A stretch of 38,529 nt of DNA from a virus. The notes beneath the pieces are model-generated. The model saw only the letters and a program-made list of their open reading frames with translations. It was not told the origin of the DNA and did not search any database. Below, piece by piece: positions 4,583-35,599 of this stretch. Where the stretch lies: IMG/VR virus record IMGVR_UViG_3300033145_000381, positions 1-38,529 of that record; one strand, 5' to 3'. Position numbers and translations under genes: made by a program. Every line of letters starts with the position of its first letter. Within the stretch, counting starts at the first letter, position 1.

Positions 4583-5161
4583 ATGGCGTCCAAAGTGCAA
4601 ATTGTGAATATGGCCCTTGTCCAATTAGGGCAACCAACAATCCTCAGCTTGACGGATAATACAACAAATGCAAAACGAGCCAATGCTATTTATGATATTG
4701 TCCGTCAGATGGTACTACAAGCTCACCCCTGGAACGGATCCACAAAACAGGCTGTCCTTACTCAGTTAGCGACTACTCCCGATTTTAAATGGACATACAG
4801 ATATTCTTTGCCGGCAGATTCTCTCCGCCCTTTATTCACGGACAAGGATCGAGGGAATGAACGAAAATGGCAACAATACGGTAATGAGATATGGTCAGAT
4901 CACGGAGAGCTTTCTCTTGAGTATATTTATAACAACGAGGACACGACTCTTTTTAGTCCCGGGCTTGTCATGGCATTATCTTCCAGGCTTGAGGCAGAGT
5001 TGGCTTATCCGATAACCGGATCCACGTCTCTCGCAGAGGCAAAGCTAAAAATATATGATGATCTGAAATTGCCGGAGGCAAAGGCTCTCGATGCGCAAGT
5101 TGGAGCAACTCAACAGCTAGACGACGGAGTTGATAATTGGGAGCAATCAAGATATGCCTAA
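4583..5161 (+). CDS. Tail tubular protein A (T7 gp11-like)
   Basis: The 192-residue product has the typical tail tubular A opening, a helical IVNMALVQLGQPTILSLTD followed by AKRANAIYDIVRQMVLQAHP WN, then an SLPADSLRPL segment and a C-terminal helix with ALSSRLEAELAYPITGS. This family forms the adaptor ring between portal and nozzle in short-tailed phages. The ATG follows CCGGAGGAG at good spacing. The gene overlaps the start of the tail tubular B gene by 8 bases, matching the T7 gene 11-12 order. Confidence 0.9.
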   Translation: MASKVQIVNMALVQLGQPTILSLTDNTTNAKRANAIYDIVRQMVLQAHPWNGSTKQAVLTQLATTPDFKWTYRYSLPADSLRPLFTDKDRGNERKWQQYGNEIWSDHGELSLEYIYNNEDTTLFSPGLVMALSSRLEAELAYPITGSTSLAEAKLKIYDDLKLPEAKALDAQVGATQQLDDGVDNWEQSRYA

Positions 5162-7631
5162 AACTGCGCCCATCCAATCGAGCTTTAATTCCGGAGAGCT
5201 TTCCGAACTTATCGGAGGCCGGATTGATATTGCCAAGTATTTCAACGGCGCATCGCTCATGGAAAACTTTTACCCTCTACAATACGGCGGCGCTCAACGC
5301 CGGCCAGGATCGATCTTTGTGGCAGAGGTAAAGGACTCATCCAAAAAAACACGCCTGATAGATTTTGAGTTTTCAACGACGGACGTCTACACTATCGAAA
5401 TGGGAGATCTCTATATGAGATTTTACCGGAATAGAGGGGCGGTCCTTGAGGGAAATATTGTTATTACTAATATCTCCTCGGACGATCCGGGACTTGTTAC
5501 TACGGACGGAGCGCATGGTTACAGCGATGGAGACGAGATTGTTGTCTCCGAAGTCGTCGGAATGACGGAGGTAAACTCAAAAAGATATATCGTCGCCAAT
5601 AAGAACGCAACGGATTTTGAATTGACGGACAAAGATGGAGAGGATGTTGATACGTCCGGTTTTACTGCGTATGATTCCGCCGGAGTTTGTAATCGTGTCT
5701 TTGAACTCACGACGACATATTTAGAGGCCGACATTTTCGATATTGATTTTACCCAATCGGCAGATAAAATTTATATGGCTCATCAAGAATACCATCCGAA
5801 AGTAGTCTCAAGGACCGGGCATACAGCATGGACGATAGCAGATTTCGCTTTTGAGGGTGGACCGTTTCAGCCGGTCAACACGACGGCAATAACTATGACG
5901 CCTAGCACGGATGCGGTTGGCGCCGGAGCAACTCTCACGGCGTCCTCCGCTTTCTTTACGGCCAATATGGTCGGTGGCGTTATCCGAGTTAAGGACGGTT
6001 GGGCGGATATCACGGCCTATGCGTCCTCGACCTCGGTAACAATCGAGATCTTTGTTGCCCTGGGGACCGGTCCGGCAGCCGTTACGGATTGGGCTATTGG
6101 ATCGTGGTCGGATGAGTTTGGATATCCTGGATCCGTTACATTTTCAGAGCAACGTCTATGGTGGGGATCCTCTCCAACGCAACCACAAAACGAGTGGGGA
6201 TCCGAGACGGCAGTATTTACAAATTACTTGCCAGGATCCAACGCATCTGATCCGATCGATATTGAGATCCTAAATACTAAAGTAAATGCGGTCCATTGGA
6301 TGATCGAGGGACCGGGAGGATTGGTTGGAGGAACTCCGGCCGGAATATCTGTCCTTAATGGTGGAGGCTTTGATGAGGCGATCACGCCGGCAAATCAAAG
6401 GAATAGACGGCATACGACTTATGGATCCAAAAAGATAAAGCCGGCACAGATCGGCGAGTTTATTTATTACATACAAAAAGATGGCTTGACGATGCGAGAG
6501 TTTGGTTACTATTCGGAGACTTACTCCGAAAAAGGCCGAGCATTAGATCAGACGGTCCTTGCACAACATATTTTAAGCTCCGGCGTTACCGACATGGCTT
6601 ATCAGCAATCGCCAAATAATATTTTATGGTGTGTCCGTACAGATGGACAGCTCGCAGCGCTAACCCGGGAGATCGATCAAGAGGTTACAGCATGGAGTCG
6701 GCATATCATCGGCGGAACGTATAACACCGGGGATGCAGTTGTTGAGACGGTAACAACAATCCCGGCAACAGATTACGATGAGGTTTGGATTATCGTCAAG
6801 AGAACGATCAACGGAGTAACCCGGCGATATGTTGAATACCTGGCCGATCCGCTTTTGGATGATCTCGACTCTGCGAGGTTTCTCGACTCCGAGCTTACTA
6901 AAGATGATCCGGTTGTGATCTCCGGAGCGACGGTAGCGTCTCCGGTTGTTGTTACAGCAACGGCTCACGGATTCAGTAATGGAGATCTCGTAAAGATTTA
7001 TGACATCCTCGGTATGACAGAGCTTAACGCAAATACTTACAAAGTGGCCGGCAAGACGGACAATAATTTTCAGCTTACTAATGTTGACGACGACACGGAC
7101 ATAGACGGATCCGCATTTACGGCATACCACTCGGCCGGCGTAGTCAGGAAAAAGGTTACAGCATTGACAGGACTCGAGCATCTTGAGGGCGAAGTGGTAA
7201 GAGTCCTCGGGGATGGAGCGGTCCAGGTTGACCAGACGGTAACAGGCGGAGCGATCACAGCGTCAACGCCGGCGGCCATCTTCCGAGTTGGGAAGCATAA
7301 GAAAGCAAGGCTCCGGACAATGAGGTTTGAGTCCGGATCCGCAACCGGCACGGCCCAGGGAAAACATAAGAGGATCTATAATATTTTTGTCCGGCTTTAC
7401 AAGACCGTCGGATTTTCAGTTGGTTACGATGAGGACAGCGCAGAGGAGCAAGAGTTTCGCACGGCCGACATGGATCTTGATAGGGCCGTGCCTCTATTCT
7501 CCGGAGATAAAAATATCCCATTTCCTCCGTCGGATGATGAGAGGGATGGATATGTTTACATTGAGCAAGATAATCCTTTGCCATGCACGATTATTTCATT
7601 GATGCCAAAAATGGAATTACACGATACATAG
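5154..7631 (+). CDS. Tail tubular protein B (T7 gp12-like nozzle) with two FCCH-like inserts
   Basis: The 825-residue protein opens with PIQSSFNSGELSELIGGRID followed by LMENFYPLQYGGAQRRPGS, the recognisable beginning of the gp12-like nozzle family. I place the start at the ATG at 5154, with GGGAG upstream, rather than the in-frame TTG at 5130. Residues about 104-180 and 585-665 are two copies of one domain, each with AHG(Y/F)S(D/N)GD, GMTE(V/L)N, a (F)(E/Q)LT block and a TAY(D/H)SAGV end. These resemble the so-called E1 FCCH-like domain often found in phage tail proteins. The nozzle closes the tail and takes part in DNA ejection; the duplicated domain may face outward and add surface contacts. 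Confidence 0.9.
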   Translation: MPKTAPIQSSFNSGELSELIGGRIDIAKYFNGASLMENFYPLQYGGAQRRPGSIFVAEVKDSSKKTRLIDFEFSTTDVYTIEMGDLYMRFYRNRGAVLEGNIVITNISSDDPGLVTTDGAHGYSDGDEIVVSEVVGMTEVNSKRYIVANKNATDFELTDKDGEDVDTSGFTAYDSAGVCNRVFELTTTYLEADIFDIDFTQSADKIYMAHQEYHPKVVSRTGHTAWTIADFAFEGGPFQPVNTTAITMTPSTDAVGAGATLTASSAFFTANMVGGVIRVKDGWADITAYASSTSVTIEIFVALGTGPAAVTDWAIGSWSDEFGYPGSVTFSEQRLWWGSSPTQPQNEWGSETAVFTNYLPGSNASDPIDIEILNTKVNAVHWMIEGPGGLVGGTPAGISVLNGGGFDEAITPANQRNRRHTTYGSKKIKPAQIGEFIYYIQKDGLTMREFGYYSETYSEKGRALDQTVLAQHILSSGVTDMAYQQSPNNILWCVRTDGQLAALTREIDQEVTAWSRHIIGGTYNTGDAVVETVTTIPATDYDEVWIIVKRTINGVTRRYVEYLADPLLDDLDSARFLDSELTKDDPVVISGATVASPVVVTATAHGFSNGDLVKIYDILGMTELNANTYKVAGKTDNNFQLTNVDDDTDIDGSAFTAYHSAGVVRKKVTALTGLEHLEGEVVRVLGDGAVQVDQTVTGGAITASTPAAIFRVGKHKKARLRTMRFESGSATGTAQGKHKRIYNIFVRLYKTVGFSVGYDEDSAEEQEFRTADMDLDRAVPLFSGDKNIPFPPSDDERDGYVYIEQDNPLPCTIISLMPKMELHDT

Positions 7632-22714: not shown

Positions 22715-23797
22715 ATGAGAAAAGCACTCTCGTATTTATTACCCTTATTAGTCGCTTTCTTTGCCTTATGTCCCCCGATTGACTTCCGGGTTCCTAGTCC
22801 GACCGAGCATTGGCCGTTTTTAATAACAGCCGCCGGCTTCCTGGGGATCCGGATCCTTTTTATGCGAGTCAATCCGATCGTTAAAGTGGTCCCTCTGATC
22901 GCTTTAATAATCTGCTTTTTTGGATCCATTCAAGTTGTTTGCTTCAACGCATATGTCCAGATCGTCTTTTGCGCATACCTCTATATCGGACTTACCCGGA
23001 TGCACTCCTGGCGCCCCATGTTTGCCACGTTAAAAGCCCTCCTGGTGTTCAACGCCCTACTCTTATTTATGCAATATATGGGATCCGATATGATGCTCAA
23101 TTTCGGACTCGCCTATGAGATCACTTGCTATGGAGTTGTTGGCCAACATATGCAGATGGGATCCTTTTCTTTGGTCCTAGCGAGCGCCCTGGCGATCATT
23201 TCGCCCTGGTTCCTCGTATTCCCTATTATAACGGCCTTGATCTGTAACTCATCCTGGACCATTGCTTGTGTAGGATCCGGCGCTCTAGCCTATGCTGCGG
23301 CTCGTAGGAAGTGGCTCCCTGTGGTCATGGGGATCCTCCTGGTGGTCGGGTTTGTCTATATGGCTCACGCAACCGGCAAGATTCCGGCAAATACCGGAGG
23401 CAACGGCCGGCTCGAAGTTTGGCGCCGAACTGTTCACTTGTTGAACGATAGGCCCTGGAACGGATGGGGACCGGGATCCTTTAAAGGTGTTTTCCCGGCG
23501 CTTTCGGATATGACCGGGATCCCCTGGAAAACAGCGCACAACGATTGGCTCCAATTTGCTTTTGAGTTAGGTTATCCGGCTTTTAGTTATCTCGTTATGG
23601 CCTGGATGTTTTTATTTTACAAGCTCGTTAAAAATTGCCAAAGATCCGGAGCGCCGATTTTGATCGCCGCCTTTGTTATGATCTCCCTCGATATGATTGT
23701 CCACTTCCCGACGAGGATGGAACAATGCAACCCTCTCATCCTTACCCTCCTGGCTTACATCCAATTATGGCTCCAAAAAACATCGATAGAAATATAA
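22715..23797 (+). CDS. O-antigen polymerase/ligase-like membrane protein (Wzy/WaaL family)
   Basis: The 360-residue product has about 10 hydrophobic segments and the family's large periplasmic loop: NGRLEVWRRTVHLLNDRPWN at about residue 228, then GWGPGSF, and the AHNDWLQFAFELG block near 274-287. These are the conserved R, G-x-G and H-N elements of the Wzy_C family. Family members polymerise O-antigen units or ligate them to lipid A-core in the inner membrane. In a phage it most likely alters host surface polysaccharide, as in serotype conversion or exclusion of competing phages. GATC and GGATCC are dense, so the gene has long resided in this genome. The start follows the previous stop by 3 bases with a weak AAGG site. 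Confidence 0.85.
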   Translation: MRKALSYLLPLLVAFFALCPPIDFRVPSPTEHWPFLITAAGFLGIRILFMRVNPIVKVVPLIALIICFFGSIQVVCFNAYVQIVFCAYLYIGLTRMHSWRPMFATLKALLVFNALLLFMQYMGSDMMLNFGLAYEITCYGVVGQHMQMGSFSLVLASALAIISPWFLVFPIITALICNSSWTIACVGSGALAYAAARRKWLPVVMGILLVVGFVYMAHATGKIPANTGGNGRLEVWRRTVHLLNDRPWNGWGPGSFKGVFPALSDMTGIPWKTAHNDWLQFAFELGYPAFSYLVMAWMFLFYKLVKNCQRSGAPILIAAFVMISLDMIVHFPTRMEQCNPLILTLLAYIQLWLQKTSIEI

Positions 23798-24699: not shown

Positions 24700-24875
24700 T
24701 GGACGATGCTATCGTTGAGAAATTGATATCAAATATCAAGAGAGAGATCCGGGAGCTTACCAGGACGGAACACATAGAGCCGACTTATCTTGACTTTATT
24801 GAATGTCCTTTGGACATTGTGAATGAGACGATCGACGGAGAATATGACAAAGCAAAAAGGGGGATCCTCGAATGA
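24699..24875 (+). CDS. Small acidic protein, unknown (58 residues)
   Basis: The frame starts at an ATG sharing a base with the endolysin stop, has GGAGG upstream at 24682-24686, and ends in TGA overlapping the next ATG by 4 bases. That tight fit supports a real gene. The product is helical and charged (KRGILE end, LTRTEHIEPTYLDFIECPLD middle) with no motif I know. Confidence 0.6.
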   Translation: MDDAIVEKLISNIKREIRELTRTEHIEPTYLDFIECPLDIVNETIDGEYDKAKRGILE

Positions 24876-26995
24876 GCCTAGTAAACTTTATCTGTCCGGA
24901 CGGAGGGAGGATCTCCGTTGATAAATGCCTACAACAAGGCGGTTGTCGCATGGGAGATCGATGCGCAACTCGTCCCTACCTAATGATGGCCAAAACAGAA
25001 AGACCGGTAAGAGCAAAATGTATTAAGTGCGGAGAGATCTATTCTCATCCGCCAGGGAGCCAAAAGTTTTTCTTTAAGTGCGATTATTGCAACGGCGATG
25101 TTGAGTATCTACCATCAACGACGCAGTTGATCCAGGGAACAAAAGCAGCTTTCCTTAAACTAACAACCGACTTTAGTATCTCTCCGGATGGCCGGGCCTT
25201 TATGATTACAGGGACCAAAGGACACTCGGCTCTCGAGAGTTTCGAGGATGAATTAAGTTTTGTCGAGGAGAAGTTTGAGGATGCAAACGAAACAGGAATT
25301 GCAGACGTATTGACCGTTGAGGATGGCGAGACTATCCTTTCCGATTATAAGGTGTCTGGATCCTACAAAGTGGCCAAAGCTCTCGGGTTTGTAACGGTTG
25401 CCGAGCCTATCGATGGAGAGTTTTTCAAGTCCGGTCCAAGAAAAGGCGAGCAGAAAACTCGCAAAGTTGTCCGGAGGATCCTCAAGGAGATCGATCGCTT
25501 TGAGTGGGCCTTGCAGTTGAACAAATACAGGATCGAATACGAGAAGCGTGGATTTAAAGTCGACAAGATGAAAATCCAATGCGTTGTCCGGGATGGTAAC
25601 ACCTACATCGCAAGGCAAAGAGGAGTCTTTCGCAACGTCTATTATTTCGATATCGAGAGATTGGACGATCAATTTGTTTTAGACTACTTTGCAAAAAAGA
25701 AAAAGGATCTCTTGTTGGCCCTAAAGATTGGTCGATGGGATCCGATTTGTAGCAACCTTGAGTGTTGGGATGGACTCAAGTGCGCCTCATATTGCGAGTG
25801 CGCTGCGAGCTGTCCTCAAGGTAAATATTTAATGAGGGAAAAACTAAAGGAGGGTGATACTATGCCAATCAAAGGCCTATCAGAAACAAGGCGCTTGCCG
25901 AGGATGGGAAAACTTAGGCTCGGAGTGATGGTCGAAAGTCCGGGGAAAAATTCATATCCAAAAGAAGTGAAACATTTTATCCTGGATCCGGCTGTTGCCA
26001 ATCCAGAAGAACATAAAAAGCTCATCGATATTTTTGAGTCCAAGTATGGAAAAGAGCCGACCTCGATCGATATCATGTTTCCGGTCGCAGATCTTGAGCA
26101 TATCTTTCCGCAGTATTACAAGAGTTATGGCTCCGGATCTCTAATGAAATGCAAGGGCGATGGATCAAAGGCGGAGACAAACGACCAGGAGTATATGTCA
26201 AAGCTAAAAAACATCGGGGACGGCGACTTTGGAAAGATCGTCGAGTGCGCCGGCAAAAATTGCCCTTACTATATGAGTAAGAAATGCTCCGAGGTCGCAA
26301 CGCTTTCGGTCCTATTGCCGGAGTTGCCGGGATCCGGAGTTTGGCAAGTTTCGACAGGATCTATCCACTCGATCCTCAATCTAAACTCTTGTTTTGATTA
26401 CATCCGTGCGCTTGCCGGACGTTTTCACATGATCCCCTTGAGGTTGGAACGCCGGGAGCAAGCTATCTCTCACGACGGAAAGAAAACAAAGCACTACGTC
26501 CTCCATATCAATCTCGAGCTTTCCTTAAAGGATCTCCAAAATAGAGCAATGATCGATCCGGTTAAGTCCGCTATGGAATTGCCGCCGATCGCCGACGAGG
26601 CAAAAGATCTCTATCTCGAACATAACGAGACGATCAATCCGGAAACGCCTCCGATTGAGCCGGAAGTTGTCGACTCGGAGTCTCCTCCGCCTCAACCTCT
26701 CCCGGACCAATTAGGAAATAATGATGGAACAGATCCGGGACCTAACCAAAAGGCTCAAAAGACTACGCAGCCGGCCGGATGGGACGATGATCCGACTCCG
26801 GAACAAGCCGAGCTTGCAATGCAAATCGAGGCGGCAATCAAAGAGTGTGAAACAACCGTGATCCTTAACGGAGTAAAGGGGCATTTCGAGCCTCACTTTA
26901 GAAAGGACTCTAAGGATCTTACAGGGAAGCAGCGCCAAGATCTAAACGAAACCTTTAAAAAACACGCAGCAGTTTTGATCGAGGATAAGAAATAA
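24872..26995 (+). CDS. Fusion of a Cas4/RecB-like PD-(D/E)XK nuclease with a gp3-like recombination-directionality-type domain
   Basis: The 707-residue protein joins two domains that I would expect as separate neighbours. Residues 1-330: an N-terminal Cys-rich part (C8, C19, C25, C31 and the pairs 50/53 and 70/73), His118, the nuclease motif GIAD (Asp145) ... SDYK (Asp158, Lys160), then QLNKYR (215-220), and a Cys cluster near 292-315 that may hold metal. From Met331: LPRMGKLRLGVMVESPGKNS, MFPVADLEHIFPQ, an S-x-x-x-KCKGDG block and a CPYYMSKKC block resemble phage gp3-like RDF proteins. A Pro-rich linker and an acidic helical tail follow. The nuclease probably processes DNA ends for recombination; no integrase is present for an RDF to act on. 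An internal start exists at 25862. Confidence 0.75.
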   Translation: MSLVNFICPDGGRISVDKCLQQGGCRMGDRCATRPYLMMAKTERPVRAKCIKCGEIYSHPPGSQKFFFKCDYCNGDVEYLPSTTQLIQGTKAAFLKLTTDFSISPDGRAFMITGTKGHSALESFEDELSFVEEKFEDANETGIADVLTVEDGETILSDYKVSGSYKVAKALGFVTVAEPIDGEFFKSGPRKGEQKTRKVVRRILKEIDRFEWALQLNKYRIEYEKRGFKVDKMKIQCVVRDGNTYIARQRGVFRNVYYFDIERLDDQFVLDYFAKKKKDLLLALKIGRWDPICSNLECWDGLKCASYCECAASCPQGKYLMREKLKEGDTMPIKGLSETRRLPRMGKLRLGVMVESPGKNSYPKEVKHFILDPAVANPEEHKKLIDIFESKYGKEPTSIDIMFPVADLEHIFPQYYKSYGSGSLMKCKGDGSKAETNDQEYMSKLKNIGDGDFGKIVECAGKNCPYYMSKKCSEVATLSVLLPELPGSGVWQVSTGSIHSILNLNSCFDYIRALAGRFHMIPLRLERREQAISHDGKKTKHYVLHINLELSLKDLQNRAMIDPVKSAMELPPIADEAKDLYLEHNETINPETPPIEPEVVDSESPPPQPLPDQLGNNDGTDPGPNQKAQKTTQPAGWDDDPTPEQAELAMQIEAAIKECETTVILNGVKGHFEPHFRKDSKDLTGKQRQDLNETFKKHAAVLIEDKK
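25846..25864 (+). promoter_or_regulatory. Internal ribosome binding site and in-frame start inside the fused nuclease-RDF gene
   Basis: AAAGGAGG at 25846-25853 is followed, 8 bases later, by an ATG (25862-25864) in the same frame, at codon 331 of the long gene, where the RDF-like domain begins (MPIKGLSETRR). It is one of the best ribosome sites in the window. It would yield a 377-residue protein from 25862 to 26995 as well as the full-length fusion. This looks like a former gene start kept after loss of the upstream stop. Confidence 0.75.
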
Positions 26996-27195: not shown

Positions 27196-27418
27196 CGAAT
27201 TAAAATTGAGGTTAAGAAGTCTCGGGGCGTTTAGCTCTGTCCAGATTAAAGAGATCGGGCATCAGATCTACTTGACGACCGCTTATCGTAGAGTGCAAGA
27301 AATGGTCGCCAGGGGAGATACTTTTATGAGGATCCCTGCGGCAGAGTGTATCTTGAGAGGGTTGGTTAGGAAAGACAACAAGCGGATTGCCTGGTTTGAA
27401 TTAAAGGGGGGATCTTGA
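27182..27418 (+). CDS. Small winged-helix-like DNA-binding protein
   Basis: The 78-residue product starts at the ATG at 27182 (GGAGG upstream) rather than 23 codons earlier in frame. It is basic and has a helix-turn-helix-like part (SSVQIKEIGHQIYLTTAYRR) followed by a segment with RGLVRKDNKRIAWFEL that could be a wing. This layout fits a small winged-helix regulator, placed just before RusA and overlapping its start. Target unknown. Confidence 0.5.
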   Translation: MKKIDELKLRLRSLGAFSSVQIKEIGHQIYLTTAYRRVQEMVARGDTFMRIPAAECILRGLVRKDNKRIAWFELKGGS

Positions 27419-27807
27419 TTAGATCGTATGAACTTGTCCCGGTCGCAAAGCCTCGAATGACACAACGAGATCGATGGTATAAGCGTCCGGCAACAAAAAA
27501 GTATTGGGATTTTAAAGAGAGAGTCCAGGGGTTTAGGATCGACGTCCCCGAGTCCGGATCTCATATTCTCTTTATTCTTCCGATGCCGGCATCTTGGTCG
27601 AAGAAGAAGAAAGCGGCTATGTATGGAACTCCACACCAACAAAAGCCGGATAAAGACAATCTCGAAAAAGCATTGTTAGACGCTATATTTGACGACGATG
27701 CTCATGTTTGGGATAGTCGAGTCTCAAAGTTGTGGGGATATACCGGGATGATTGTTATCGAGGAAGATTGCGAGATCCCTTTTAGCATTTCCAATATGTT
27801 ATCTTGA
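27415..27807 (+). CDS. rusA: RusA-like Holliday junction resolvase
   Basis: The 130-residue product carries the RusA signature KPDKDNLEKALLDAIFDDDA, residues 77-96, with the conserved Asp79, Asp81, Asn82, Lys85 and the later Asp cluster that holds magnesium. RusA dimers resolve Holliday junctions and branched DNA made during recombination-dependent phage replication. The start is a TTG at 27415 overlapping the preceding TGA, with AAGGGGGG upstream; no later ATG would keep the N-terminal strand. It sits with a nuclease and an SMC-like ATPase, forming a recombination group. Confidence 0.88.
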   Translation: MIRSYELVPVAKPRMTQRDRWYKRPATKKYWDFKERVQGFRIDVPESGSHILFILPMPASWSKKKKAAMYGTPHQQKPDKDNLEKALLDAIFDDDAHVWDSRVSKLWGYTGMIVIEEDCEIPFSISNMLS

Positions 27808-28412: not shown

Positions 28413-28561
28413 GCATATTTACTTACTACTTTAAACTTTTATTTACACCCGAGCCGATCGCTCCAATAGTGATCGTTGTCTTTGGCGGCTTGATGTTTTG
28501 GGCCGGCCATAGTAAGAGAGGAAAACATGAAAATAATACAGTTAAACGCACAGAACATTAA
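28409..28561 (+). CDS. Small membrane protein (50 residues)
   Basis: The frame opens with ATGA overlapping the previous stop and encodes a hydrophobic segment (APIVIVVFGGLMFWAG) followed by a basic tail (HSKRGKH). Its end overlaps the ATPase start by 35 bases. The organisation is typical of a small coupled membrane gene; no function is assignable. Confidence 0.5.
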   Translation: MSIFTYYFKLLFTPEPIAPIVIVVFGGLMFWAGHSKRGKHENNTVKRTEH

Positions 28562-29789
28562 GAACCTAAAAGCAGTTGAGATCCGGCCGGATGGATCCGC
28601 CGTTGTATTAGAGGGAAAGAACGGCGCCGGCAAGAGTGCGATCCTTGATGCAATCTTTACAACGCTAACCGGCAAACGTCTCGAGGATCCTATCCGGCAC
28701 GGCGAGTCGAAAGCTCAAGTTGTTGTCGACCTGGGAGATCTCCTTGTTACAAAATCCTGGACTCAAAAAGGCGAATATCTCAAGGTTGCCAACAAGGACG
28801 GCGCAGAGTATGGCTCTCCGCAACAAAAGCTCAACGAGAGAATCGGGAGCTTGTCGTTTGATCCCCTGTCATTTAAGTCTCTGAAAGATCAAGGTCAAGT
28901 CGATTATTTACAGGATCTCGTCGGGCTTGATTTTACTGAGTCTCTTGATAAGGAAAAGGCCGCCTTTGATGAGAGGACGGCTGTCAACCGGGTTGTTAAA
29001 AACCTGGCCGTTGAGATCTCAAATATGGATCCGGCGGATCCGAAAACGGCAACCGAGGAAATCTCTATGGCCGCAGCGCTTTCCGTACTTAAAGATCTAA
29101 AGCGCTGGAAAGAGGAGTATAATGCGAGCCTTGATGCAAGAGATCAAAAGGAGGAGGACGTCGAGGATGCAAAAAGGCAAATCATCGATCGGGAAAAACG
29201 GATCGAATTATTAAAGGAAGAAATTGTCGAATTTAACGCCGTCCTTGTTGATAGACAAAAGATCTTATCCGATCACGTCTTGCCAAAGGAGATCATGGAC
29301 GGACAAATCGAGAAAGCCGAGGACGGCTTGCAGAACCTCGAGGCGACCAACATCAGGATCCGGGCAGCCAATACTTATAAAGAAAAAAGATCCTCTTATG
29401 AGGGCGCTTGTAAGGACGCCGACGAGCTTACGAAAATGATTGATGAGTACAAGGCGATCCGAGGCCGTATGCTTAAAGATGCAAACTATCCGGTCCCTGG
29501 CCTATCGATCACGGAGCAAGGCGTCGACTACAACGGCGTATTATTTACCAGGCTATCAACCGGTCAACAAGTGAAAGTCTCAACAGCGATCGCTATGGCC
29601 TTAAATCCGGATCTCCGGGTAATCTTGATCCGAGAGGGATCCTTGCTTGACCGTGAGGGCCTCGAGTCGGTTGTCGAAATGGCAAAGGATAAGGATTATC
29701 AAATCTGGATCGAAAAAGTTGCCGACGAAAAATCCTCCGGGATCTTCATCGAGGATGGATCCGTCAGGGAGGGGGAAGCAGTTGTTTAG
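28527..29789 (+). CDS. RecF/SMC-like AAA ATPase
   Basis: The 420-residue product has Walker A GKNGAGKS (residues 30-37), a central coiled coil (about 190-310) and a C-terminal LSTGQQVKVSTAIAMAL signature around 342-358. The Walker B position reads VILIREGSLLD, without the usual Asp-Glu pair; this R-(D/E)-G-S-L-L-D form recurs in phage ATPases of this type, so it may still hydrolyse ATP. Relatives act on DNA ends or gaps in repair and recombination. GAGAGGAAAA precedes the ATG. It follows RusA and the Cas4-like nuclease gene in the same transcription unit, which supports a recombination role. Confidence 0.82.
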   Translation: MKIIQLNAQNIKNLKAVEIRPDGSAVVLEGKNGAGKSAILDAIFTTLTGKRLEDPIRHGESKAQVVVDLGDLLVTKSWTQKGEYLKVANKDGAEYGSPQQKLNERIGSLSFDPLSFKSLKDQGQVDYLQDLVGLDFTESLDKEKAAFDERTAVNRVVKNLAVEISNMDPADPKTATEEISMAAALSVLKDLKRWKEEYNASLDARDQKEEDVEDAKRQIIDREKRIELLKEEIVEFNAVLVDRQKILSDHVLPKEIMDGQIEKAEDGLQNLEATNIRIRAANTYKEKRSSYEGACKDADELTKMIDEYKAIRGRMLKDANYPVPGLSITEQGVDYNGVLFTRLSTGQQVKVSTAIAMALNPDLRVILIREGSLLDREGLESVVEMAKDKDYQIWIEKVADEKSSGIFIEDGSVREGEAVV

Positions 29790-34613: not shown

Positions 34614-34928
34614 ATGACATGGATAGAAGTCCGCAAGGATGTAACATTTAATAGGATGGCAATGATTTTCCTTTGGATTGTGCTACTGCTTGACTGTATA
34701 GTCGTGCATGGCTGTCTGAGGAAAGAACAACAAGAGGCGATCAAGAGTGTCAAGGAAGTGGCTCAAGTAAAGAAGGATCTCATTAAAATAAAAGACGATC
34801 TATCGTATGAAAAGAGCGTTTTCTGGAAACAAAAAGAGATTGTCAGCGAGATCCAGAGGATGCTCGAGAATCATTACGGCCATGTTTACATCGATAAGAG
34901 GCCGATTTATTGGAGGGAGGATCTATAA
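34614..34928 (+). CDS. Membrane-anchored coiled-coil protein (spanin-like topology)
   Basis: The 104-residue product has a basic N-terminus (RKDVTFNR), one membrane helix (MAMIFLWIVLLLDCIVVHG) and a coiled-coil tail (QKEIVSEIQRMLENHYG), the topology of an inner-membrane spanin with the C-terminus outside. GGGGAGGGGAGAG precedes the ATG. No overlapping outer-membrane partner is seen here, so a lysis role is only a possibility. Confidence 0.45.
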   Translation: MTWIEVRKDVTFNRMAMIFLWIVLLLDCIVVHGCLRKEQQEAIKSVKEVAQVKKDLIKIKDDLSYEKSVFWKQKEIVSEIQRMLENHYGHVYIDKRPIYWREDL

Positions 34929-35108
34929 ATGGCAGCTTATATTTGTGCAAAGCAATATCGTGGGGTATTGGTAGGAGGAGGATGGTACGGCGACGAGCCG
35001 TATTGCCATAGTTTCGTTGATAAGCCCGGCGAGGATTGTGCGGAGTGTAAGGCGGTTATCAAGACGATCGAGAAGCAACGAGATAAACCAATCATATCGG
35101 AGGAGTAG
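34929..35108 (+). CDS. Small Cys-containing protein (59 residues)
   Basis: Starts at an ATG immediately after the previous stop, with GGAGG upstream. It has Cys6, a PYCHSF block and a CAEC pair, so it could bind zinc. It contains a glycine/tyrosine stretch (GGGWYGDEPYC). It ends one base before the next ATG. Unknown. Confidence 0.5.
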   Translation: MAAYICAKQYRGVLVGGGWYGDEPYCHSFVDKPGEDCAECKAVIKTIEKQRDKPIISEE

Positions 35109-35246
35109 ATGAGTATAGATCCGGGAACAAACGAAAACTTTTACGATCCGAGGTTTGATAAAAAGACATTGAAGTTTTGCGATCGATGTAAAGCAATGAA
35201 GTCTCGATCACATATTAAGAAGTGCAAAAAGAGAGGCAAATTATGA
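35109..35246 (+). CDS. Small zinc-finger protein (45 residues)
   Basis: The ATG follows the previous stop directly, with GGAGG about 10 bases upstream. The product ends FCDRCKAMKSRSHIKKCKK, a CxxC/H-x3-C zinc finger with a basic tail. The stop overlaps the next ATG by 4 bases. Possible nucleic-acid binding. Confidence 0.55.
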   Translation: MSIDPGTNENFYDPRFDKKTLKFCDRCKAMKSRSHIKKCKKRGKL

Positions 35247-35389
35247 ACGCAAAGAAAGCTAAAGCGCTCCGCCGGTTTGTTTTTAACATCATGGCAACCA
35301 GGCGGACCAAAGCCTCATGCAAACAACTCTACGCAGCCGCAAAGAAAGATTATGCTTGCGGTCGCATCGTTATCGATAAGTCTCAATAA
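35243..35389 (+). CDS. Small basic protein (48 residues)
   Basis: From an ATGA overlap the frame encodes a basic helical product (AKALRRFVFNIMATRRTKAS, then AAAKKDYACGRIVIDK). It is the last gene before the terminase promoter region. No motif; real by its coupling. Confidence 0.45.
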   Translation: MNAKKAKALRRFVFNIMATRRTKASCKQLYAAAKKDYACGRIVIDKSQ

Positions 35390-35408
35390 TCCCCCCACGT
35401 CGAGCGTC

Positions 35409-35424
35409 GTTGCCGCCAGGCAAC
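35409..35424. promoter_or_regulatory. Solitary perfect copy of the iteron palindrome
   Basis: GTTGCCGCCAGGCAAC has perfect GTTGCC/GGCAAC arms and matches the iterons at 33886-33945 in 14 of 16 bases. It ends 27 bases before the -35 of the terminase promoter, a position used by activators and some repressors. The protein that binds the origin may therefore also control late or packaging transcription. Confidence 0.6.
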
Positions 35425-35451
35425 AGGATAAATCAATATCCTGGAAACTCC

Positions 35452-35482
35452 TTGACAAATCCATAAACATTATGCCTATAAT
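35452..35482 (+). promoter_or_regulatory. Strong sigma70-type promoter for the terminase/late genes
   Basis: Perfect TTGACA (35452-35457) and perfect TATAAT (35477-35482) with a 19-base spacer, longer than the ideal 17. The long spacer suggests that an activator or topology affects strength. Transcription would begin near 35489, right at the first base of the RNA structure downstream. Confidence 0.75.
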
Positions 35483-35490
35483 GTAAGCAT

Positions 35491-35563
35491 AACGGCTTGG
35501 GATGTATCATTACAACCTCGGGAGAGTCCGGACACCCTCCCGGGGTTGACCTCATAAGCCGTT
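35491..35563 (+). ncRNA. Structured leader RNA ahead of the small terminase gene
   Basis: An outer 8-bp stem pairs AACGGCTT (35491-35498) with AAGCCGTT (35556-35563). Inside it a 12-bp stem pairs CAACCTCGGGAG (35513-35524) with CTCCCGGGGTTG (35537-35548), with one G-U pair, around a loop AGTCCGGACACC. The 5' side linker is 14 bases, the 3' one 7 bases. It begins at the predicted transcription start and is followed by no T-run, so it is not a simple terminator. It may be a 5' stabiliser, a regulator of terminase translation, a pac/cos element or a packaging RNA. I know of no matching family. Confidence 0.6.
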
Positions 35564-35599
35564 TAATCCCATGCTAGAACAATGAGAGAGGACTACTGC

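Follow-up and report, generated by a model that had tools for sequence, protein, structure and literature searches.

The window (i.e., the whole stretch of DNA analyzed here, covering positions 1–38,529 of the record IMGVR_UViG_3300033145_000381) carries a 114-nt exact direct repeat at both of its ends, and the genome of this phage is therefore considered complete. Among its genes are those for a T7-like head-tail connector, capsid and terminase. The locus of interest is a long gene in which a nuclease-like and a Gp3-like half share one reading frame:

24872–26995, plus strand: fused nuclease and Gp3-like gene of 707 aa, running from ATG to TAA without internal stop; 12 further fused loci were found
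24872–25861, plus strand: N-terminal part (residues 1–330), a divergent PD-(D/E)XK, Cas4/RecB-like putative exonuclease of the phrog_2139 type
25019–25090, plus strand: zinc-ribbon-like CxxC...CxxC insertion (residues 50–73), present only in this phage's copy and a gap in 12/12 other fused homologues
25846–25853, plus strand: internal Shine-Dalgarno (SD) sequence AAAGGAGG, spanning Lys-Glu-Gly codons
25862–25864, plus strand: internal ATG (codon 331), separated from AAAGGAGG by an 8-nt spacer and leaving 377 aa
25862–26995, plus strand: Gp3-like protein of 377 aa, with an OB-fold-like core holding C97, C129, C134 and C142, followed by an acidic, Pro-rich tail
27415–27807, plus strand: RusA Holliday-junction resolvase (PF05866, E-value of 9e-13), downstream within the same gene block
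28527–29789, plus strand: SbcC/RecF-like AAA ATPase (phrog_1499), downstream of the fused gene

The first-pass annotation had described a single open frame of 707 codons with an ATG at codon 331, located 8 nt after AAAGGAGG, and both descriptions are correct. Homologues of the SbcC/RecF-like ATPase also lie near the fused gene in the relatives L070 and L079. Annealases of the RecT (PF03837) or ERF (PF04404) families were found in none of ten records. Elsewhere in the genome, an O-antigen ligase/polymerase-like membrane protein (22715–23797; PF04932, E-value of 9e-14) is possibly a host surface modifier, a nozzle-like tail protein (5130–7631) gives two matches to PF16190 (ubiquitin-activating enzyme E1 FCCH domain; E-value of 1e-21), and a stretch of ~650 bases ahead of the terminase genes (34928–35582) is devoid of long ORFs save for 35277–35486.

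The nuclease and Gp3 halves

The proposed nuclease–Gp3 fusion was supported. The N-terminal half scored weakly against known families and yielded no Pfam match above cut-off, but PHROG 2139 ("exonuclease") matched it with an E-value of 6e-7 in this phage, 7e-11 in its relative L073 and 2e-39 in a homologue from a Selenomonas plasmid. Across 15 aligned sequences, the residues H118, E122, D145, D158-x-K160 and Q215-x3-Y219 were invariant. This H...E / D / D-x-K / Q-x3-Y pattern is the same as that of PD-(D/E)XK enzymes, and these motifs predict nuclease activity. The invariant cysteines of this half are located towards its N-terminus (C8, C19, C25 and C31) and its C-terminus (C293, C304, C308 and C314); in the Cas4 family, four Fe-S cysteines occur, with one N-terminal and three C-terminal to the nuclease core. 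A first structure model of the full-length protein was poor (pLDDT of 54).

The C-terminal half is a true homologue of the phiC31 recombination directionality factor (RDF). Residues 346–548 of the fusion matched PF18897 (Gp3-like) with E-values of 5e-44 to 6e-44 and 150.6 bits (curated cut-off of 23.6 bits), and sequence profile comparison with the phiC31 RDF yielded an E-value of 1.3e-12. Moreover, a Gp3 model built from 61 sequences (pLDDT of 89.4) had the phiC31 RDF in the excisive synapse as its sole strong structural match (9teh_I, Z-score of 12.5). The structural rows following this match were nearly all OB-fold ssDNA binders, i.e., BRCA2 (4.2), T4 gp32 (3.7), RB69 gp32 (3.3), and further RPA, CST, Cdc13, POT1 and MCM N-terminal domains, yet with weak Z-scores of 2 to 4.2 (under 5, and below what the tool regards as telling). 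Such scores provide a lead only, and a common fold does not equate to a common function. The four conserved cysteines of the core and the acidic, Pro-rich tail fit with this lead; phiC31-family RDFs likewise carry four predicted zinc ligands (PMC11530663).

The extreme C-terminus was also compared among homologues. An SSB-like -IPF end, a further sign in this direction, occurred in 6/56 Gp3 proteins versus 10/753 other ORFs, although the latter include true SSBs and five of the six Gp3 proteins belong to one clade. These EIPF or DIPF ends, found on the separate Gp3 proteins of L101, L107, L110, L111, L112 and L138, resemble the C-terminal tip through which SSB brings in replication and repair proteins. 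In one fused phage (L073), a classical SSB is present as well, so that Gp3 is not simply the SSB of that phage. According to the phiJoe paper, the phiC31 and Bxb1 RDFs act in phage replication as well (PMC5311408).

Fused, separate and single-half relatives

Single-protein scans yielded no close relatives; these were retrieved by a motif pattern followed by alignment scans. In total, 12 further distinct fused genes were found, located on 11 viral contigs (L068, L069, L070, L073, L077, L079, L080, L090, L092, L093 and L096) and in one Thiothrix MAG (L082); a search of 369 genomes from the Thiothrix class returned only this known match. The relatives are mostly metagenomic contigs without cultured hosts, and the fused gene of L069 runs past its contig end. 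Fused homologues are 47–69% identical among themselves. Since twelve independent relatives show the same arrangement, with the same fused frame recurring in 13 separate assemblies, an assembly error or frameshift could be ruled out.

In viral loci carrying both parts, the window-type nuclease was always fused to Gp3. The nuclease alone was encountered on Selenomonas plasmids (L085, 2486–3379, pSRC4; L086, 2498–3388, pSRC3), downstream of a DnaB-like helicase gene and with no Gp3 in the stretch read. In the Gp3 tree, the 13 fused genes fell within one clade of 15 rows (support of 95/93), together with L100 and L103. The gp3 genes of the latter two (L100, 4001–4756; L103, 4001–4786) are nested among the fused ones, and the nuclease was found neither nearby nor elsewhere in their contigs. 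Although a tree is no proof, its simplest reading is that the fusion arose once and that the nuclease was subsequently lost once.

When relatives were compared for separate genes, as the first-pass annotation had suggested, gp3 stood alone in most of them and started at a methionine matching codon 331, the position at which separate gp3 genes begin by annotation or inference; an SD precedes it. In most phages, gp3 genes adjoin Cas4/RecB-type exonucleases. In phiC31 and in phages of Bacteroides, Elizabethkingia, Streptomyces, Microcystis and Arthrobacter, a separate gp3 follows shortly after an exonuclease gene of the PD-(D/E)XK or Cas4 type. The early block of phiC31, with its order of exonuclease gene 1, gene 2 and gene 3 and its homologous Gp3, resembles the fused locus, but phiC31 has separate genes and a serine integrase, whereas the genes are fused and no integrase was detected in the phage studied here.

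In the closer relatives L098, L101, L102, L107, L109, L110, L111 and L115, the end of a Cas4-like nuclease gene runs 8–23 nt past the gp3 start in another frame, because of which the SD of gp3 resides inside nuclease codons. These pairs thereby share their gene order and an SD in the end of the nuclease with the fused gene, but differ from it in nuclease subfamily and in the use of two frames. An origin of the fusion through loss of a single stop, as proposed earlier, is not supported: the fusion is old (one clade with 13 fused genes and two nested genes lacking the nuclease), its nuclease belongs to another subfamily than the separate ones, and loss of a single stop would not join the separate pairs since these mostly overlap in another frame. 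Some GC-rich phages (e.g., L010, L040 and L064) have a long open stretch in frame ahead of gp3; these were considered as further fusions and rejected, as the nuclease lies in another frame.

The internal start signal

The AAAGGAGG site has a predicted SD:anti-SD energy of –12.1 kcal/mol, a value matched or exceeded at 0.4% of the codon positions of the fused gene and at 0/16 of its other internal Met codons. Folding of the internal ribosome-binding region is weak in this phage and four relatives, with a stability not above that of shuffled sequences, and a search for internal promoters revealed promoter-like sites at a frequency not exceeding that in shuffles.

Both the junction ATG and a GGAG/GAGG-type SD in front of it were present in 13/13 fused genes, with varying codons and phases for the SD. 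Specifically, the SD is written as AAG GAG (Lys-Glu) in seven genes, as AGG GAG in L068 and L077, as tcG GAG Gat in L079, as AGG AGa in L082, as GAG GTG in L092 and as c GAG Gaa in L093. When amino acids were kept fixed and codons were redrawn according to the codon usage of each gene (2000 draws), the summed junction SD energy was –70.4 ± 9.0 kcal/mol versus –122.0 kcal/mol observed, and none of the 2000 draws was as strong. The corresponding z-score was –5.9 at the junction versus 0.01 ± 1.07 at 36 control positions, and no other internal Met in the 13 fused genes equalled the junction SD of its own gene. Four-fold degenerate sites between fused genes are saturated (0.28 vs. 0.25 expected), making the fused lineages nearly independent at the codon level, so that common ancestry cannot account for the SD codons. 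An SD and start codon within the ORF are thus conserved beyond the requirements of the protein and, because the SD exceeds both codon resampling and the other internal Mets, internal initiation is under selection.

In 10/11 genes, the internal SD has a stronger predicted energy than the one ahead of the full-length start, suggesting that free Gp3 would be produced in excess of the fusion. The possibility of two products, raised in the first-pass annotation, is supported by the conservation of SD and ATG in 13 divergent genes, and both the 707-aa fusion and a free 377-aa Gp3 are very probably made.

Possible roles of the two products

Several known genes offer points of comparison. Gene 4 of bacteriophage T7 specifies two products, the 4A primase-helicase and the 4B helicase, from in-frame starts; like the fused gene, it is a phage replication gene with two in-frame products, but its domains are unrelated and its N-terminal part is a primase. 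In Cas10d/Cas11d and Cas11b, the C-terminal part of a large protein is also made alone as a subunit (PMC10327210; PMC11899642), although these are CRISPR effector subunits, unlike a phage nuclease–Gp3 pair. The Rpn (recombination-promoting nuclease) proteins RpnL and RpnS share one PD-(D/E)XK nuclease gene, in which an internal start in the same frame yields a separate C-terminal protein and the SD lies within Lys-Glu codons shortly ahead of the Met (PMC10327210).

We consider it probable that one gene delivers both a fusion and free Gp3: an exonuclease would be held to an SSB-like replication/recombination protein, of which an unfused form would be produced as well. Initiation at 24872 would yield the 707-aa Cas4/RecB-type exonuclease–Gp3 fusion, and independent initiation at codon 331 would yield the 377-aa Gp3 by itself, at a level that probably equals or exceeds that of the fusion. 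Gp3 would be a zinc-containing OB-fold protein that binds (and possibly anneals) ssDNA in replication or recombination. The exonuclease would resect DNA into single strands, free Gp3 would coat these strands, and the fused copies would keep the nuclease at the Gp3–DNA complex. The open frame, the conserved fusion, the selection on the internal start and the homology of Gp3 with the phiC31 RDF stand as results of the sequence analysis; it is the product pair, the product ratio, the ssDNA binding, the nuclease activity and the tethering that we infer in this scheme.

The main rival is an Rpn-like regulation by the short form, in which free Gp3 would restrain or position the fused nuclease through mixed oligomers, as RpnS does with RpnL. 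The shared nuclease type and the origin of the Rpn C-terminal part from an internal start speak for it, as does the very similar Lys-Glu...Met layout targeted by the Rpn RBS/start mutations K240R, E241D and M244L (PMC10327210), and the fused gene, too, would be expected to yield more of the short form. However, Gp3 stands alone in most phages and occurs without a fused nuclease in L100 and L103, which argues for a separate function of Gp3 itself. Moreover, Rpn tails are small, variable and antitoxin-acting and change fast, whereas the C-terminal product here is a conserved 240-residue PF18897 domain that is found as a separate gene as well (PMC10327210). We regard regulation by the short form as unlikely. 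It is less likely still that a single fused product is made, with the internal SD and ATG left over from once separate genes or only tuning elongation. Separate gp3 genes do begin at this methionine and have an SD, but a relic would decay, while SD and ATG were kept in 13/13 fused genes despite an identity of about 50%, saturated synonymous sites and altered phase and residues.

The first-pass annotation had further called the Gp3 part RDF-like. If it were an RDF for a serine integrase, the fusion might couple excision to the nuclease. The Pfam family name and the true homology with the phiC31 RDF fit such a role, which is nevertheless very improbable: the complete genome of this phage has no match to PF00239 (serine recombinase) or PF00589 (tyrosine integrase), and PF00239 found no match in the other fused viral records searched, while the PF00239 search recovered phiC31 as a control. 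Extending the exonuclease–Gp3 scheme to the whole family, we tentatively propose, at somewhat less than even confidence, that Gp3/phiC31-RDF proteins are basically OB-fold ssDNA-binding replication/recombination proteins that partner Cas4/RecB-type exonucleases, here delivered tethered and free from one mRNA, and that control of integrase direction in phiC31 is a secondary use.

Genes within genes are known as such; the pairing of a nuclease with Gp3 appears to be undescribed, and the open-access literature searched described neither a Cas4–Gp3 fusion nor a link between RDFs and the OB fold. Standard annotation would record one gene and one protein for the fused frame. A start conserved in 13 divergent genes is a clear addition to the few known genes-within-genes, and one that pairs a nuclease with its partner. 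The gp3 gene of phiC31 is widely used in genome engineering, and the present data bear on the nature of RDFs, since exonucleases are the usual neighbours of the Gp3 family and, in this case, no integrase was detected. The role of gp3 before integrase control thereby becomes directly testable.
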